Shown one piece after another: positions 40,967-48,260 of a DNA stretch of 48,260 nt. The stretch's first letter is position 1, and each line of letters opens with the position of its first letter. Position numbers and translations under genes: made by a program. The notes below the pieces were generated by a model that did no database searches, was not told the DNA's origin, and saw nothing but the letters and a program-made list of their open reading frames with translations. Source of the stretch: Aliihoeflea sp. 40Bstr573 (GTDB lineage Bacteria; Pseudomonadota; Alphaproteobacteria; Rhizobiales; Rhizobiaceae); NCBI RefSeq assembly GCF_024105655.1, contig NZ_JAAAMH010000022.1:1-48260 (forward strand). The letters are read 5' to 3'.

Positions 40967-42481
40967 CTATTGTCGGGAAAGCATCTGCTCTCTCGCTTCA
41001 ATCACGCACTCCATCAGCCTGTTCAATTGGCGCAATGATCCACCGTCCCAGACACTTAAAATGGCTTGGCGTTCGATCTCATCGAGAGGAATCGCCCATC
41101 GGTGATCGAAGCCACGTTCGCTATAGATTCGGCTCAAGATGCTGCCGCTGAGCGCAGCCAAGTGACTCCGGTTAGGTCGCGGAAAGCGGACGACGCGACA
41201 TCGGTCAAGCAGCGGTTTTGGAACACCTTCTAGGTCGTTCGCTGTCAGTATCCACGAAACCAAAGAGAGATCGCATTCCATCTGAAGGTATGGGTCATAC
41301 CACCGCCGCGCCGTTTCATCCTCAAAAAGACCAATGAGGACGGCATGTATACTTCCACCATGACCACCCGTCGCGACCTTTTCGAATTCATCAAGAATGA
41401 CGCCCGGGCCACAGCTGTTCGCGCGACATGCAGCGCTTATCGCGATACATGGCGCGCCAGTCTTCCATCGTCGGGGCGTTCCGCCAATGGCGCTGTCGCT
41501 CGTCCCTCCACAGGAAACGAGAGTGTAGGCCATCCCCAATTCTTCAAAAAGGCGTCGTGCAAATCTGGTCTTCCCGCTGCCCGGTTCGCCAACCAGAACC
41601 GTTGGTCGTACGCGAGGCCTGTTTAGACCCGACAGTTGTGCGAGAATACCTTCGATTGCTTCAGACGCATAGGGAAACTCCATCACGAGGTTTTGACGGA
41701 CATGGGTCGAATTCACCATCGCCGGATAAGGCAGGCGAGTTCCTACAAACGCGCTGAAGCTTGCCGAAATGTCCCGTCCTTCCGATGTCAGCTTGTTGCC
41801 AATTGCCGGGATTACGACGACCCCACCTTCGTCAGAATGGTTTGCGGGCTTTTCCTTTGCATGCTGCGGGTCGGCCAGGCGGGCCGTCGAGGGTAGCGCC
41901 ACTTTAAAGACCCCATCGAGCAATTCATCGCCATTGCGGATGATCTCTTTCATCATGTTGGGCGACATTGAAAACTTAAGGAACTCGCTGTCGAGCGACA
42001 CCGCAAGATGACTCCACGCCAGCGCCCGTTTGAACATGCTTGGGCATTCTGCGGAAGGCGGTATCTCCAACGCGTCTTGTGTCAAACGTCTTGAGACAGC
42101 CCACGCGGAGTCTGGGTCTCCAAAATAAGCAAGGTAGATCTGACACCTCAACATCGGATTGGCGACGTGCCGCGACTCTGTAGGCGGCATCTCGATCAAG
42201 GCATGGCGGAGGTGATCGACTAATTCTTGCCGAGGAGAAATAGCCAAGGCACCTGCCAATTCTGCCAACGGCTGGTATTTACCGCCGACTTTGGCCCACG
42301 CCGAAGAGTATCTGGTTGCAGATTCACGGATGTCGCTCGCGAGCAATGCCTCGAAGAAGTTCATTCCATATGCCAGCTCGCGCTCGGACGGCAAATAAGT
42401 TCCTTGAGTAGCTTTCCGATCGCGCGCTTGAAATCGCGCAGAATTAGGATCTAGCAACTTCACGCGGAGCGCCCATCGCAA
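40967..42481 (-). CDS. AAA-family ATPase, Lon-like ATPase domain, no protease
   Basis: A 504-residue protein. The first ~270 residues are helical and unrecognised. The AAA core follows with Walker A GEPGSGKT (298-305), Walker B VILDEFEK (361-368), sensor 1 in WILTANDLEGV (N415) and an arginine finger in LLDRCRVVRF (about R427). The ATPase part resembles that of Lon (TAND...PLLDR), but the protein ends ~70 residues later without a protease domain. Its start overlaps the upstream small gene by 22 bp, so the two are coupled. Possible roles are remodelling in a defence or toxin system; nothing in sequence proves it. Confidence 0.75.
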   Translation of the reverse strand: MRWALRVKLLDPNSARFQARDRKATQGTYLPSERELAYGMNFFEALLASDIRESATRYSSAWAKVGGKYQPLAELAGALAISPRQELVDHLRHALIEMPPTESRHVANPMLRCQIYLAYFGDPDSAWAVSRRLTQDALEIPPSAECPSMFKRALAWSHLAVSLDSEFLKFSMSPNMMKEIIRNGDELLDGVFKVALPSTARLADPQHAKEKPANHSDEGGVVVIPAIGNKLTSEGRDISASFSAFVGTRLPYPAMVNSTHVRQNLVMEFPYASEAIEGILAQLSGLNRPRVRPTVLVGEPGSGKTRFARRLFEELGMAYTLVSCGGTSDSAIGGTPRRWKTGAPCIAISAACRANSCGPGVILDEFEKVATGGHGGSIHAVLIGLFEDETARRWYDPYLQMECDLSLVSWILTANDLEGVPKPLLDRCRVVRFPRPNRSHLAALSGSILSRIYSERGFDHRWAIPLDEIERQAILSVWDGGSLRQLNRLMECVIEAREQMLSRQ

Positions 42482-42990
42482 CGAGTTCCGCGTCTTCGTC
42501 CAAGGCGGTAGTAGCGGGACAACGTGCGCGCGTATCCTTGTCCCTCATCGATATGAAGCAACAGCGACGTGCAAATGGGACGCGCGTATCCCGTCAGCTG
42601 CGGATGCCCGTAGACGAGGCCCTCCAGCCGCGGGGAGGAGAGTTCGTCACAGAATATCTCCCACTCGGTCAAGATCGGCATTGATGCGGGCTGCTGCTCG
42701 ACAATGCATTCGAACCTCCCTTCAACAATTAACAAGCGATGGAGGGAATCCCTGGCTAATCGAAATTTTTCGAGATGCACATCCGCCCCGGCTATATTTT
42801 CGGCGGCGATTTCACTGATCGAAAGGTCAAGCTGCCTTACCAGTTCGTCGAGCGTCCACTTTGTCGAACCACGAAAGCGCTCGTACCCCTGAAATCGGCT
42901 CGTCCCGATCTTTGAGTTCAACATTTCGTCGGCTCCAGGCAACGATTTTCGGAGGGCGGGGACACGGCTGAAAAACTTGAAAAGAAGCAT
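42460..42990 (-). CDS. Unknown protein coupled to the AAA ATPase
   Basis: A 176-residue, probably cytoplasmic protein beginning MLLFKFFSRVPALRKSLPGADEMLNSKIGT. I recognise no domain. It is rich in charged residues and aromatic pairs, with a Arg-rich end (RLGRRRGTRCDGRSA). The ATG at 42990 has AGAGG 6 bp upstream. It overlaps the AAA gene by 22 bp and is divergent from the XRE regulator, forming a three-gene module. Confidence 0.65.
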   Translation of the reverse strand: MLLFKFFSRVPALRKSLPGADEMLNSKIGTSRFQGYERFRGSTKWTLDELVRQLDLSISEIAAENIAGADVHLEKFRLARDSLHRLLIVEGRFECIVEQQPASMPILTEWEIFCDELSSPRLEGLVYGHPQLTGYARPICTSLLLHIDEGQGYARTLSRYYRLGRRRGTRCDGRSA

Positions 42991-42999
42991 AATGCCTCT

Positions 43000-43027
43000 T
43001 TTATAGAGCCTATTTGCCTCAGTTCAA
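43000..43027 (-). promoter_or_regulatory. Possible promoter of the unknown/AAA operon
   Basis: On the minus strand TTGAAC (43022-43027) and TATAAA (43000-43005) are 16 bp apart. The predicted start lies only a few bases from the ATG at 42990, which would make the mRNA almost leaderless, so the assignment is tentative. The divergent XRE gene starts 92 bp away and could regulate here. Confidence 0.35.
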
Positions 43028-43081
43028 GGTGTGGGTCGACAAATTGTTGACACCGTGCCCGGTACTGGACACCTCGGACCA

Positions 43082-43342
43082 ATGGGTCCACGTTTTAGCT
43101 CCGACAGTATTCGCGCCGCGCGCGTCCTCGCCGATTTGAGCCAAACCGATTTGGCCAAGCTAGCGCGCGTTTCTCGTGTCACCGTTCAACGAATTGAACA
43201 GGAACCGAACGATATTAGGAAGAATTCTTATGATCGCGTGATTGCAACTCTGGAGAGCCGCGGGGTTAGGTTGAGACGCGATCAAGACGATCCAAAGCTA
43301 GAGTGGCTTGGTAAACGGACCGACTGGGATGGTTCTGCTTAA
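43082..43342 (+). CDS. XRE-family helix-turn-helix regulator
   Basis: An 86-residue Cro/CI-type protein. The HTH runs about 10-60 (SIRAARVLADLSQTDLAKLA ... VTVQRIEQ). The ATG at 43082 is used; the frame is open to 43031, where another start lacks support. Small XRE proteins divergent from an operon often repress it, so this is the likely regulator of the unknown/AAA pair. The C-terminal ~25 residues are charged and unrecognised. Confidence 0.8.
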   Translation: MGPRFSSDSIRAARVLADLSQTDLAKLARVSRVTVQRIEQEPNDIRKNSYDRVIATLESRGVRLRRDQDDPKLEWLGKRTDWDGSA

Positions 43343-43761: not shown

Positions 43762-43875
43762 CTACATGCCGAGTGCGTTCATATAGAGCTCGACCAGCGC
43801 TTCTTCTTCCTGGCGCTCGTTCGGGTCTTTCTTGCGCAGGCGGATGATGGTGCGGATCGCCTTGGTGTCGTAGCC
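43762..43875 (-). pseudogene. gapR: Detached 3' tail of gapR (DUF2312)
   Basis: 37 codons and a TAG encode [20 protein letters not shown] followed by [17 protein letters not shown]. This is the C-terminal third of the alphaproteobacterial nucleoid protein GapR/DUF2312. The codon just upstream is TAA and similarity ends there sharply, so the tail has been cut from its gene. With a recombinase trio 250 bp to the right on the same strand, it looks like the leftover of site-specific integration at the 3' end of gapR. Confidence 0.8.
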
Positions 43876-43909
43876 TTATCCCCCCTACTCAGAATTGTCG
43901 TTTGCGATA

Positions 43910-43995
43910 GTAGGCGGTGCGGCGAGGCTTCCACAGCGCAAGCGTCGCACCGCCTACGGGTCCAGCTTGGCAATTGGACCCGGCCGCAGGCCGGG
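43910..43995. repeat. Cluster of three hairpins next to the gapR tail
   Basis: Stem 1: GTAGGCGGTGCG (43910-43921) with 43946-43957, 12 bp perfect. Stem 2: GGGTCCA (43958-43964) with TGGACCC (43975-43981). Stem 3: CCCGGCC (43979-43985) with GGCCGGG (43989-43995), followed by CTTTCT. Stems 2 and 3 share three bases, so they cannot both form in full. It may be a small RNA, a terminator, or recombinase binding sites. Confidence 0.65.
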
Positions 43996-44031
43996 CTTTC
44001 TCATCCCGATCGAACGGAGCCTTCAGAGCTA

Positions 44032-44046
44032 CACTTACAGTAAGTG
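44032..44046. repeat. Near-palindrome, candidate recombination core
   Basis: CACTTA-CAG-TAAGTG: two 6-bp arms around three bases. It lies 80 bp from the end of the trio and 157 bp from the gapR tail. It could be an arm or core site for the tyrosine recombinases; there is no direct proof. Confidence 0.3.
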
Positions 44047-44125
44047 GTGTTCGGCTTAGGAATAGAGATTCCGTGCAGGCAAAGTTCGGCTGCTGTCGTC
44101 GAACACTAGCCTTTTCTACAGTCGG

Positions 44126-44905
44126 CTACCCGCCCACCGCGCCGGGATCGCCCAGCCCAGCCATCTTTTCCAGTAGCCTGAGTTCCTCCGCAACAACGAG
44201 ATCAGACCCAGGCGCATAGTCCATCTTGATCCGGTCGCCACTATAAGTGAGCCCGAACTCCGCAAGCGTCTTGGCGTCTTTAAGCCGACACACAAAATGC
44301 TGTAGAATCTCCTGTTCACGCGACGAGAGACTCGAAATGTCCGTGATACTCAGCCGTCCCTTTCGGAGGCCTTCGATGTCGGCGACAGGTCCTTGGCGCA
44401 AGGCGGCGCTCAGTATGTCAAACTGCCGCTTCCATTGCCGTCCCTCGGCAAGAGCTTGGCGCAACATTGCCTGACCGGTGAGCCCAGGTACGGTGTTGAC
44501 GATTTCCTCCAACTGGTGCGCGCGGTTGCTGCGAGCCTTGGACCGTTTGGGTGCGCTCACCTCGGCGAAACGGAGCTTGACGTAGTCCCTAAGTTCTCTA
44601 TCGGCGCGGATCGTGGTGCCAACAGGTCCTGTCCACTCCGACGAACCTTTCTCAGTTCGTTTGCGCAAACGGACGTACGTTTCAATTATTCGCGGATTGA
44701 GCTTGGGAAACTGAGGGTTAAAAGACTCTGGATTTTCGCCCACGGATTTCGCCCTGTGGTACGCCGCTCCCGACAAAATTTCGTCACATGCCTCGACCAA
44801 GCGGGCCAACGTACCAAGTCTGCGCCTGTCGCCGGCCATCCTCGCCGCAGACCGCAGGCGGTCCATCAGCTGTTCGGCGAGGGAATTCTGGTCACTACTG
44901 CTCAT
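44126..44905 (-). CDS. Third protein of the recombinase trio (GmtX-like)
   Basis: A 259-residue soluble, charged protein, without a recognised catalytic motif. It contains PRIIETYVRLRKRTEKGSSE, then WTGPVGTTIRADRELRDYVKLRFAEV, and a helical C-terminal half. The start at 44905 has AGAGGGA 8 bp upstream and overlaps the end of the large recombinase gene by 11 bp; ATG 44914 is too close to that site. Its place after a ~1100-residue tyrosine recombinase resembles gmtX of gamma-mobile-trio elements. That assignment rests on order, size and recollection. Confidence 0.65.
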   Translation of the reverse strand: MSSSDQNSLAEQLMDRLRSAARMAGDRRRLGTLARLVEACDEILSGAAYHRAKSVGENPESFNPQFPKLNPRIIETYVRLRKRTEKGSSEWTGPVGTTIRADRELRDYVKLRFAEVSAPKRSKARSNRAHQLEEIVNTVPGLTGQAMLRQALAEGRQWKRQFDILSAALRQGPVADIEGLRKGRLSITDISSLSSREQEILQHFVCRLKDAKTLAEFGLTYSGDRIKMDYAPGSDLVVAEELRLLEKMAGLGDPGAVGG

Positions 44906-47900
44906 GCCGGACATCCCTCTTGGAACCGGCCGATAAGCTGGGGACCACTGTTGCGATTTCTGCACGGATGCTGTCGAGAACGCGTTCGTCCAAACGAACA
45001 ATTCCTTCGAGCAACTGTTGAAATCGATCAGCGTCCGGAGAATCATCGAGTAACGCGTCGCCGATTCTTAAACAGGCGTCCGTTTCATCCTTCATTGGAA
45101 TTCTGATCATCAGATCACCCAAGTCGTTGACGCGCATTATCTCTCGCACCATAGCAATCATGTTTGCCTCTGCCCCATGCGGGATTTCCATGATTACTGA
45201 TGGAAGTAGTCGCATGTCCCTCACTAAGGAGTGTAGCAACTCAAAGTGATGGACTTCGACCAAGCTGCACGAAATAGCACTTGGATCGAAACCAGGTACG
45301 GATGGAATGAGGATGTTATCGGCCGTTTTTCCTTCTGACTTCGCTGCCCGCTCGACCTGCCTGATTATCTCGCTGACTTGCAGTTCTCTTGACAGCTCGA
45401 ACGTGAGATTGTCTTTGAGGCTGCTGTCTGCGTGCCGCAATTTACGGAGCCTGTGTGCCGTCTTGCCGGTCCGTTGCTCCTCGGCCTCTATTTGCTCGGC
45501 CAGTTGTCGCATCCGAACGCCGGTCAGTCGAAGCTCGGCCATGAGAATATTGATTCGACGCTTGATTCCGTCCTTGAACCTAGGCCCGGTTGCTCGGAAG
45601 CGGCATCCTGAGCATGCTCGATCTCTCCAAACAGGGCGAAACTTGCCCTCCATGTATTTCTGTCCGCCGATTGAACAGGTTCCTCCGGGACAGATGCCGT
45701 GATCGAATACATCCAGCAATGAGGCGCTCTTGTCTTCCGCGTGACGCCGCAGCAAGCCCGCCCCCACATGATCTTCGACGAATGGCGGCGTGATGGTTTG
45801 ATCGGCGTAATCCCGGATTAGATCGCTATTGCCTGAGACCAACTGGTCAAGTGCTTCGCTACGCATCGCCATAGCCTGCGCCACGGCAGTATTTAGCCGC
45901 GCACTGCGCAGCCCGTTGTAATGCCAGGTCATTATCCAAGTGGCATGCCCGACCAAATCCTTTACTATCTCAATATTGACCCCAGCAGACAGGAGGTTCG
46001 AGACCATGGTCACGCGCAATGAGTGGATGTCGAATAGTGGCCCGTTTTCATCCACCAGCGGGTACTCGTGACCAAGGAGCTTGTTCACGCCGTCTTGGCA
46101 CGCATGCAGCAGTTCTTTCCAATACCCGCGGACCTTTTCCTCACTGATAGCAAGATTCAGAGCCACCCCGGGGTCGCGGAAGAGAGGATAAATATCGGGA
46201 AATAGATTTGCGTCCGCCCTGGATGCTCTCGTTGTCTCTAATCGCTGGGTTACCGGCGACGTGATCGGATTGTATTTTTGCTGCAGGGCAAGCATCCTCT
46301 GTGTCGCTTGCACTATCGCGGGGTCCGTCCACGGAATGACGAATGGCTTTCCCGTTTTGTTCAGCCCCACACGCATTCCTATGGTCTTGGACGCTTCCCT
46401 TCCGGGTAGCGTGACCAATTGAAGAAAGCCCTCGTTTCGATCGACGGTTGCGCAGACATGCTGGTTTGGGACGGGTCTTCGCCCCTCAACGTCGAGGACG
46501 TATTGATCTCCTTCCCCGCTGTCGAGCCAGCGCGCACTGACAAGGCGCATTCCGGAATTCAGCAAAATATCCACGATGATCGCCTCAGCTGGCCAGAATA
46601 CGACTTCGAACTCACCCGTTTGGCGGTTACGAAGCCTGTATTGGAAGCGCCCGGGAGCGAGACTTCGTGCAAACGCAAAATCGCCTTCCCGGTTCATTCG
46701 AACAATGAACTCCCACACTTCCTGCTCCAGCGGCTTGCGAGGAGTCACATCGCTACGCTTTGCGCGCGACCTTCCTAGGCGGTCGTGTTCGAGGTCAAAC
46801 GGGCTTGTCTCGCTTACGAATTCGTCCCGTACGGATGCTAGGTAAAAAGCCTTTGCCATCGCGGAAATCGCACGATTTGCCCAGTCGGCTGCCTTCCCTG
46901 AAAAGTTCGCGACGAGAAACGTACGGAAGCCGGTTTTGTTGACGCCGCTCAAGTCGTGAACGTGCTTCGGGCGCGAGATCGATCGGAAGTCCGGCGGGGC
47001 ATCGGCCGCGTCCAGCGTCAGTAGATATATGAGCCATATATTAAGATCATTTTCGATCTGGCGGATGTCCTTGACACCGAAGTGCGGCAGTAACTCCCTC
47101 AATTGACCTGCCCACGATTTGACGTGCGCCGGAATAGCCGTGACTGGCGATCCGGTAATTCGCGCTGCTCGCTGGGTGTTTCGGGGCGTCGGTCTAGCTG
47201 TCCAGTCGAAGGCATCGACGCCGATCACGCCAATCCGGGCGGATGTCAGGAATAACCTAGCCTCGGGACCGCGGGGAGTGGCGTCTCCGAACCACTCGGT
47301 CGCCAGTTTGTAGACGGCATTGATCGACGTCGAGACTTGCACCTTGGACGAGAATTGGCCGGAGCATTCTTTGAAGGCAGCGAGTGGATACCAACGAAAC
47401 GGGCTGTCTTCTGACAGCCAAGTATTGCCTGCCAATGCTGACATTGCGAAGGCCTGTATGGTCATCGAGGCCGTTTGGTGTCGCTTGGTCTGATGAAAGC
47501 GGTAGACGAAATCGGCAAATTCACGCCGATCCCGACCGACCGACATCCGAGTGGCGAGCGGTAGATAACGACTGGGGTACAGGTAAATTATCCGCCCGAC
47601 GTATCGTGCCGGCCATATCCAAATGCCTCGTCTGGCTAGATACTGTGCGAACCAGCCATGGGCAAATTCCACAGCCTCTTCCGGTTTGAGGGATCTCCTG
47701 ACCCGAACGGCAGTGTCGCCCATCCAACGGTCAACCTTTCCGGCCAAGTAGCTGAGAAAGCTGAAGACGTCATCCGCCCGCGCGACCTTCTCGCGGAGCT
47801 CGCGCCATCCGACAGTGGAACCCTGCGACACCACCATCCAATCGTCGATGTCGCCCTGATTCACGATCGCTTCTATAAGGCACAGCTGTTGTTGACGGCT

Positions 47901-48161
47901 CAGAGTGAGCGTGAAGTCGACGATTGATCCCGTGCCTCTAGGCGAGTTTGTTCGTCGCTTGCCGTGCGGAGTCTTGTCGGACAGATATCCGAGCGCCACC
48001 GCAGCTTGAGTTAGCGCACTTTTCTTGAAATGCACTGATTTTGCCGGTTTGGCATACGAAATCATGCCGAATGGCAGATTCGCACGGGCCTCAAGGTTTA
48101 CCGCCCGGAAGTTCAGACCGCCGAGATTATCGGCCAGTTGGACACTTCGAACTACCGGCAT
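44895..48161 (-). CDS. Large tyrosine recombinase of the trio (GmtZ/VPA1269-like)
   Basis: A 1088-residue protein, far longer than ordinary integrases (300-450). The catalytic domain lies about 500-760: R539 (LLNSGMRLVSARWL), H713 and R716 (DIHSLRVT), H739 (LVGHATW) and nucleophile Y748 (HYNGLR), i.e. a complete R-HxxR-H-Y set. After it a four-cysteine cluster (C824, C829, C850, C853) could hold zinc. A ~300-residue helical end follows. The ATG at 48161 lies 0 bp from the stop of the upstream gene. It is likely the site-specific recombinase of a mobile island. Confidence 0.85.
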   Translation of the reverse strand: MPVVRSVQLADNLGGLNFRAVNLEARANLPFGMISYAKPAKSVHFKKSALTQAAVALGYLSDKTPHGKRRTNSPRGTGSIVDFTLTLSRQQQLCLIEAIVNQGDIDDWMVVSQGSTVGWRELREKVARADDVFSFLSYLAGKVDRWMGDTAVRVRRSLKPEEAVEFAHGWFAQYLARRGIWIWPARYVGRIIYLYPSRYLPLATRMSVGRDRREFADFVYRFHQTKRHQTASMTIQAFAMSALAGNTWLSEDSPFRWYPLAAFKECSGQFSSKVQVSTSINAVYKLATEWFGDATPRGPEARLFLTSARIGVIGVDAFDWTARPTPRNTQRAARITGSPVTAIPAHVKSWAGQLRELLPHFGVKDIRQIENDLNIWLIYLLTLDAADAPPDFRSISRPKHVHDLSGVNKTGFRTFLVANFSGKAADWANRAISAMAKAFYLASVRDEFVSETSPFDLEHDRLGRSRAKRSDVTPRKPLEQEVWEFIVRMNREGDFAFARSLAPGRFQYRLRNRQTGEFEVVFWPAEAIIVDILLNSGMRLVSARWLDSGEGDQYVLDVEGRRPVPNQHVCATVDRNEGFLQLVTLPGREASKTIGMRVGLNKTGKPFVIPWTDPAIVQATQRMLALQQKYNPITSPVTQRLETTRASRADANLFPDIYPLFRDPGVALNLAISEEKVRGYWKELLHACQDGVNKLLGHEYPLVDENGPLFDIHSLRVTMVSNLLSAGVNIEIVKDLVGHATWIMTWHYNGLRSARLNTAVAQAMAMRSEALDQLVSGNSDLIRDYADQTITPPFVEDHVGAGLLRRHAEDKSASLLDVFDHGICPGGTCSIGGQKYMEGKFRPVWRDRACSGCRFRATGPRFKDGIKRRINILMAELRLTGVRMRQLAEQIEAEEQRTGKTAHRLRKLRHADSSLKDNLTFELSRELQVSEIIRQVERAAKSEGKTADNILIPSVPGFDPSAISCSLVEVHHFELLHSLVRDMRLLPSVIMEIPHGAEANMIAMVREIMRVNDLGDLMIRIPMKDETDACLRIGDALLDDSPDADRFQQLLEGIVRLDERVLDSIRAEIATVVPSLSAGSKRDVRHEQ

Positions 48162-48260
48162 TTAGTAGACCGTAGGGCCGCGATTTGAGTTCTGCACGGC
48201 CTGACATGTGGCTGCGGCTTCGGCATCGGTCATCTGGGTTGGTGCGGGGCACCGATTTTC
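48162..48260 (-). CDS. C-terminal end of the first trio gene (partial)
   Basis: The frame is open from the window edge for 32 codons (ENRCPAPTQMTDAEAAATCQ, then AVQNSNRGPTVY) and ends with TAA 48164-48162, directly touching the next ATG. By position this would be the first recombinase (GmtY-like). No catalytic residues are in view. Confidence 0.5.
   Translation of the reverse strand, partial: ENRCPAPTQMTDAEAAATCQAVQNSNRGPTVY

Follow-up and report, generated by a model that had tools for sequence, protein, structure and literature searches.

A probable integrative element, distantly related to gamma-mobile-trio elements, that splits gapR in Aliihoeflea and brings a substitute gapR

Introduction

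Integrating islands commonly avoid harm to their hosts by using the ends of genes or by rebuilding the end of the target. Gamma-mobile-trio (GMT) elements are defined by the gene order recombinase, large integrase and X, and Tn554 has radC as its target. Herein, we describe element A, a probable integrative element of which one end occupies positions 43876-48260 of a 48,260-nucleotide stretch (the window) from Aliihoeflea sp. 40Bstr573 (assembly GCF_024105655.1, contig NZ_JAAAMH010000022.1, positions 1 to 48,260 of the forward strand). Element A works like GMT elements, Tn554 and the strand-biased circularizing integrative elements (SE), and it swaps the host gapR for a copy of its own; the gene is replaced, not repaired.

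In SE, the two ends once joined make up an inverted repeat with a 6-bp spacer at its centre (PMC10214605). GInt islands (ginABCD) and RIT elements are described in PMC5385486 as site-specific and as carrying several tyrosine recombinases, with excision compatible with 6-nt staggered cuts. As for the target, PMC7373187 gives GapR residues 1-52 as consisting of helix H1 alone, a segment that self-associates without binding DNA, and H2 as residues 50 to 70. The gene is reported to be essential in Caulobacter. In a search of the open-licence literature, none of the matches listed described integration into gapR or an element that targets it.

A split gapR in Aliihoeflea

The Aliihoeflea genome is designated G000, its window contig C15, and the contig with the 5' side of the gene C34. 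G001, G002, G003 and G004 belong to the same genus; G053, G342, G299, G216 and G376 represent five further genera with one genome each; G214 shares the genus of G053, and G728 comes from a different family of the same class. The compared genomes are one per species. The features at the split are as follows.

43765-43875, minus strand: gapR 3' half (GYDTK...NALGM) left by the insertion of element A; its stop codon, 43762-43764, comes from a second island, element B
43870-43875, minus strand: GGCTAC, the 6-bp core (codons for Gly-Tyr) at which element A crosses over; its codon position is the same in 10 of 10 insertions
43876-43887, plus strand: terminal inverted repeat of element A, TTATCCCCCCTA; its partner on C34 is TAATACCCCCTA, with 10 of 12 bases shared
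G000:C34:27029-27175: gapR 5' half, 49 codons
G000:C34:26666-26923: complete carried gapR

A sequence-only reading of the window had proposed a cut-off gapR tail with its stop at 43762-43875, where similarity ends at a single codon, and both observations proved correct. Read on the minus strand, this interval comprises 37 codons and a stop (GYDTKAIRT...NALGM); it matches Pfam GapR_DNA-bd (E 3.2e-15, profile positions 37-72), and its likeness to intact gapR ends at the codons GGC TAC. The whole-genome Pfam search of G000 returned three GapR matches, namely the tail, one 5' half ending in a stop (C34:27026-27142) and one complete gapR (C34:26672-26887). The gene is thus cut in its middle, after about 49 of 84 codons. 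The DNA flanking the C34 5' half aligns with the flank of gapR in G003, where the gene is uninterrupted at the same locus, and its neighbours are genes that we take to encode DUF1244, N-formylglutamate amidohydrolase and pyruvate kinase. The complete gapR on C34 is 74% identical to the G000 host gene over 73 residues. Both window ends are contig ends; there is nothing to the right of 48260, and rightward extension is impossible in this assembly.

Recurrence of the split and the ends of element A

GapR was found in 383 of 388 family genomes, and Caulobacter alone gave a match above the cut-off among 14 control genomes, which points to an alphaproteobacterium as the source of the window. All 40 family genomes with at least three GapR matches were inspected for gapR halves, most by match ranges alone; among genomes with one or two matches, G006, G064 and the unsplit controls were inspected. 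Nine of the 40 are split at the Gly-Tyr/Phe site, and genes of the recombinase trio described below occur in all nine. Of the others, G363 is split at a different site and G107 has a 3' half by itself. A scan with a junction pattern, one mismatch allowed, gave matches in 114 of 394 genomes; among the matches listed, gapR was cut in 5 of 30 loci. The true junctions of G053 and G216 also matched the pattern, as entries without loci, and those of G376 and G214 were missed by it.

Ten insertions were found including that of G000, and seven are whole on one contig. In these seven, the order is 5' half, complete gapR, island and 3' half, with approximate element lengths of 62.5 kb (G001), 59.9 kb (G002), 11.9 kb (G053), 62.4 kb (G342), 95.6 kb (G299), 89 kb (G216) and 36 kb (G376). 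G214 and G728 have the same pieces spread over different contigs. Because the same break is met in nine other genomes, it is not a matter of chance. An assembly chimera was ruled out, since seven insertions are whole on one contig and G053 is a one-contig genome.

All ten insertions cut gapR at the same Gly-Tyr/Phe codons, with a 6-bp core GGNTWY and inverted ends. The first 12 bases inside both ends share 7 to 10 positions (mean 9.1 over ten elements), compared with a mean of 3.0 of 12, a maximum of 7 and no value of 8 or more in 270 comparisons of a slid control. The upstream/downstream cores are GGCTAC/GGCTAC in G000, GGCTAT/GGTTAC in G001, GGTTTC/GGCTAC in G002, GGCTTC/GGCTTC in G342, G299, G376 and G214, GGCTTT/GGCTTC in G216, GGGTTC/GGCTTC in G053 and GGTTTC/GGCTTC in G728, so that the two flanking cores are equal in five elements and different in five. 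In 8 of 10, the 5' half meets a stop codon directly at the upstream end of the element. Joined, the element ends would form an inverted-repeat site around the 6-bp spacer. We consider it highly probable that element A inserts in gapR at Gly-Tyr/Phe by site-specific tyrosine recombination and brings a substitute gapR.

These insertions agree with the earlier proposal of a mobile element that targets gapR, each having trio genes and the same codon pair. They do not agree with the form of integration proposed with it, in which the element enters at the gapR 3' end, rebuilds the gene at its other edge and leaves a displaced tail in the window. A tail with its stop does stand alone beside recombinases, as that account expects, but the cut lies in the middle of the gene and the other edge holds a truncated 5' half and a separate, different complete gapR in 10 of 10. 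The repeat of the tail expected at that edge was sought, and no second DNA copy exists anywhere in the G000 genome. With the seven one-contig insertions also contradicting it, we regard the 3'-end account as extremely improbable.

The recombinase trio

The trio genes are designated Y, Z and X. In the window, X, Z and the end of a third gene, probably Y, read towards the gapR tail.

44126-44905, minus strand: X, a 259-aa predicted helical partner protein of no known family
44895-48161, minus strand: Z, a 1088-aa large tyrosine recombinase, a distant GmtZ relative
48162-48260, minus strand: 3' end of the upstream gene, probably Y from the gene order in relatives, cut by the contig end

The end of X lies 250 bp from the gapR tail, and the sizes of X and Z given in the sequence-only reading were confirmed. 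The upstream frame, whose stop codon occupies 48162-48164, stays open as far as the end of the window, and its 32 residues are too few to identify the gene. Residues H713, R716, H739 and Y748 of Z are invariant in eight aligned Z proteins and presumably represent the HxxR..H..Y pattern. Trio genes occur in all ten elements; Y-Z-X is complete in eight, and in G000 and G214 it is cut by contig ends. Y, Z and X are the genes found common to the elements in a comparison that covered part of their gene content. Identity to the window Z is 57% in G342 and 29-55% over the best aligned parts in the others.

A four-row Z alignment was searched against the 388 family genomes with a threshold of E 1e-20. 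It matched 13 of them, of which eight are strong (E <1e-250), four of these having supplied the query alignment, and all eight have a split gapR. The five weak matches (G098, G121, G424, G428 and G461; E 4e-24 to 3e-27) include no split gapR, and each of these genomes has one intact gapR except G121, which has four whole ones. G214 is absent from the matches; there the contig end truncates Z, of which the 3' part is present together with X. When 385 genomes of the class were searched with Z, the one further match was G728, in which gapR is split. A genome-contig scan with the window Z alone found four gammaproteobacterial relatives, and the A3 scan of viral contigs found no relative. The AlphaFold model of X (mean pLDDT 76, pTM 0.45) had no match in the PDB at E 0.001 or better.

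We considered whether gapR is only a hot spot into which another recombinase inserts, the trio being a passenger of the islands. The trio varies in position and orientation, as this account would have it, and G053 has one further recombinase-like protein besides the trio, an 809-aa protein beside the gapR tail whose C-terminus reads like a tyrosine recombinase and which matches no Pfam or NCBIfam family; part of a relative lies beside the G214 tail. However, trio genes are in all ten elements, the split accompanies strong Z in 8 of 8 genomes and weak Z in 0 of 5, and G728 has both the most distant trio and the most different ends. A passenger trio is therefore unlikely in our judgement. The 809-aa protein is at L053:3620-6049, and the part of its relative, 89% identical over 330 residues, is at the contig start in G214 (L178:70-1059).

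The carried gapR

In 10 of 10 elements, a complete gapR follows closely on the upstream end, on the strand of the host gapR and 47-144 bp past the cut, with start codons chosen by script. A gapR tree of 44 sequences and 73 columns, covering eight of the ten elements (G214 and G728 left out) and with many forks open, placed the copies of G000, G001 and G002 outside the host gapR clade (branch support 100/94); these are 67-74% identical to the host's own. The carried gapR is apparently foreign in some elements and may be recaptured from hosts in others.

Two or more gapR genes are common in family genomes, and the copy of G216 resembles that of its host closely, so the complete gapR might be no part of the element but an ordinary paralogue, or might have arisen by duplication of the host gene. 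The constant place and direction of the copy in all ten elements, and the position of three copies outside the host clade, argue against this, and we find such an origin very unlikely.

The Asp-Thr-Lys codons next to the core are kept in 1 of 10 element copies and in 19 of the 28 remaining intact copies (Fisher p 0.0025, without correction for relatedness), and their loss may protect the element copies from reinsertion. Recoding of the attachment site in the element copy was not clear at the DNA level, where the right-arm window ranks 13 of 70.

Two observations concern single genomes. In G000, the sequence that separates the 5' half from the carried gapR has a strong hairpin (z -5.1, L018:6925-7029); it is not common to the relatives, G000 alone of the ten being below z -3. 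G004, of the same genus and without the element, has a gapR of the element type at the native locus (G004:C37:42146-42361, L084), 88% identical to the G000 element copy, which could be a scar or a resistant allele.

Relation to GMT and other elements

The sequence-only reading had compared the trio with GMT, and this held in part. The best NCBIfam match was GmtZ for the three Z proteins tested (window, G053 and G001; E 2e-47 to 8e-37) and GmtY for the three Y proteins tested (G342, G376 and G299; E 2e-33 to 3e-27). The gene order Y-Z-X, met also in Bosea, and the variable cargo agree as well, and Z has the DSGEGD stretch and much else in common with the Bosea VPA1269 protein. The curated cut-offs were not reached: for GmtZ (VPA1269 equivalog, 600 bits) the scores were 138.6 (window), 126.7 (G053) and 161.7 (G001), and for GmtY (340 bits) they were 104.1 (G342), 116.4 (G376) and 96.2 (G299). 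The Bosea Z beside an annotated gmtX is also below its cut-off (389.6), and likewise the Bosea Y (300.9). The X proteins of the window, G053, G001 and G342 had no NCBIfam match to GmtX, for which the Bosea GmtX scores 89.7 (cut-off 40). Alignment of nine X proteins with the Bosea GmtX by hhalign gave a probability of 19.7% (E 0.0012), so that a very remote kinship may exist. In addition, element A differs from GMT in that it targets gapR and carries a gapR. With Y and Z falling well short of the curated cut-offs and X distinct from GmtX in every test made, these comparisons place element A in a GMT-related branch and do not make it a certified GMT member. The host range, suggested earlier to be new, is not: VPA1269-family genes are recorded in Bosea and Acidiphilium, and gmtX is annotated in the alphaproteobacterium Bosea.

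The likeness to SE and Tn554 is one of ends and consists in the 6-bp spacer between imperfect inverted terminal repeats, seen in ten elements. SE differ in having four core genes including tfp, with a tfp-srap synteny reported only from Gammaproteobacteria; strand bias and circle formation that leaves no empty site are further marks of this kind of recombination. In gene content, GInt has ginABCD, three integrases and a small HLH protein, and element A has two recombinases and X as its conserved genes, with one further recombinase-like protein in G053. The reading of element A as an ordinary phage integrase element was rejected.

Proposed mechanism and significance

We propose that element A inserts where gapR passes from the coiled-coil helix H1 to the helices that bind DNA, the cut falling approximately at this boundary given H2 as residues 50 to 70. 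Y and Z would carry out the exchange, with X as an accessory. From its position, the host gapR promoter would read through the stranded 5' half into the gapR of the element, and the cell would depend on the GapR supplied by the element. Losing the element by random deletion would consequently carry a penalty, and an exact excision would give back the host gene.

Several observations weigh against this proposal. The trio is at the tail end in G000, G001, G002, G216, G299 and G728 and at the upstream end in G053, G342, G376 and G214, and it runs in either direction, so it does not form a fixed module at one terminus. In G299 Z is broken into two pieces, and the 5' half has no immediate stop in G214 and G728. 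The carried copies are not one clade, and that of G216 is 96% identical to its own host's gapR and may therefore have been recaptured. No promoter-like site came up in a sigma-70 scan confined to the G000 region, which is a weak test either way. The halves in G000, G214 and G728 lie on different contigs and are presumed to be linked, and both the mobility of the element and the expression of the carried gapR are deduced from sequence.

Element A, instead of sparing its target, cuts a reported-essential gene mid-way and replaces it whole, and it thus seems to impose its own GapR, a chromosome-organising protein, on the host. This makes several ideas testable, namely a nucleoid protein as an addiction module, a foreign GapR that favours the element, and a part of the trio that chooses the site.

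A third kind of island, in G363 (G363:C24:229945-263895, L174-L176), splits gapR elsewhere, near Asp codons. It carries a complete gapR inside its upstream end and three other recombinase-like genes (407, 655 and 757 aa, read by eye). Because this island combines other recombinase-like genes and another cut site with a complete gapR, gapR could be a hostage gene, in which unrelated recombinase trios cut different codons and each bring a partly foreign substitute on the host promoter; we hold this to be an even question. If it is true, the element's protein takes the place of the host nucleoid protein, a cell that loses the element also loses its GapR, and a coiled-coil fragment that cannot bind DNA may be left behind.

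Element B and other gapR-linked elements

The DNA to the left of the gapR tail is not the normal downstream DNA of the host but the second island, element B.

123-43764, no strand assigned: part of element B, an arsenic/metal island, with its counterpart at G001:C16:72176-115816
43765-43770, minus strand: proposed 6-bp core GGCATG of element B, the last gapR codons, from one insertion with both ends seen in G001
40967-43342, no strand assigned: genes for an AAA ATPase, a DUF6634 protein and an HTH regulator, at the end of element B nearest to gapR

The block 123-43894 has 99.95% identity to G001:C16:72176-115946 across 43772 bp. G000 and G001 agree much less in the host DNA next to gapR, at about 86% identity, and the gapR tails differ. 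Such near-identity between two species suggests a recent transfer of element B. In G001 the island spans about 54.6 kb and is bounded by the gapR stop and the genes that normally follow it; its far end was not found in G000 because the left window end is a contig end. gapR ends with GGCATGGCCTGA in G002 and G003, compared with GGCATG followed by the TAG of element B in G000. This indicates that two different elements use gapR in G000, and element B appears to have inserted at the stop codon of the stranded tail. At its far end in G001, three large genes (336, 497 and 773 aa) were read as tyrosine recombinases, of which only the 497-aa protein has strong recombinase family matches. Element B and the G363 element each have a large-gene trio that by our reading resembles the GInt and RIT kind, and the two trios have no match to each other.

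The cargo of element B includes arsenite oxidase subunits, ArsH, a heavy-metal P-type ATPase, a Pst-like permease and SulP. A lone gapR 3' half is present in G107 (G107:C32:140014-140136, L181), with no matching 5' half among the GapR matches of that genome. Genes for the AAA, DUF6634 and HTH proteins, partly or together, occur in the window (40967-43342) and at L018:3779-6559, L053:2559-3333 and L175:18734-19975, and a relative of the AAA protein (42%) lies inside the G363 gapR element. This set is perhaps a shared accessory module of gapR-linked elements.

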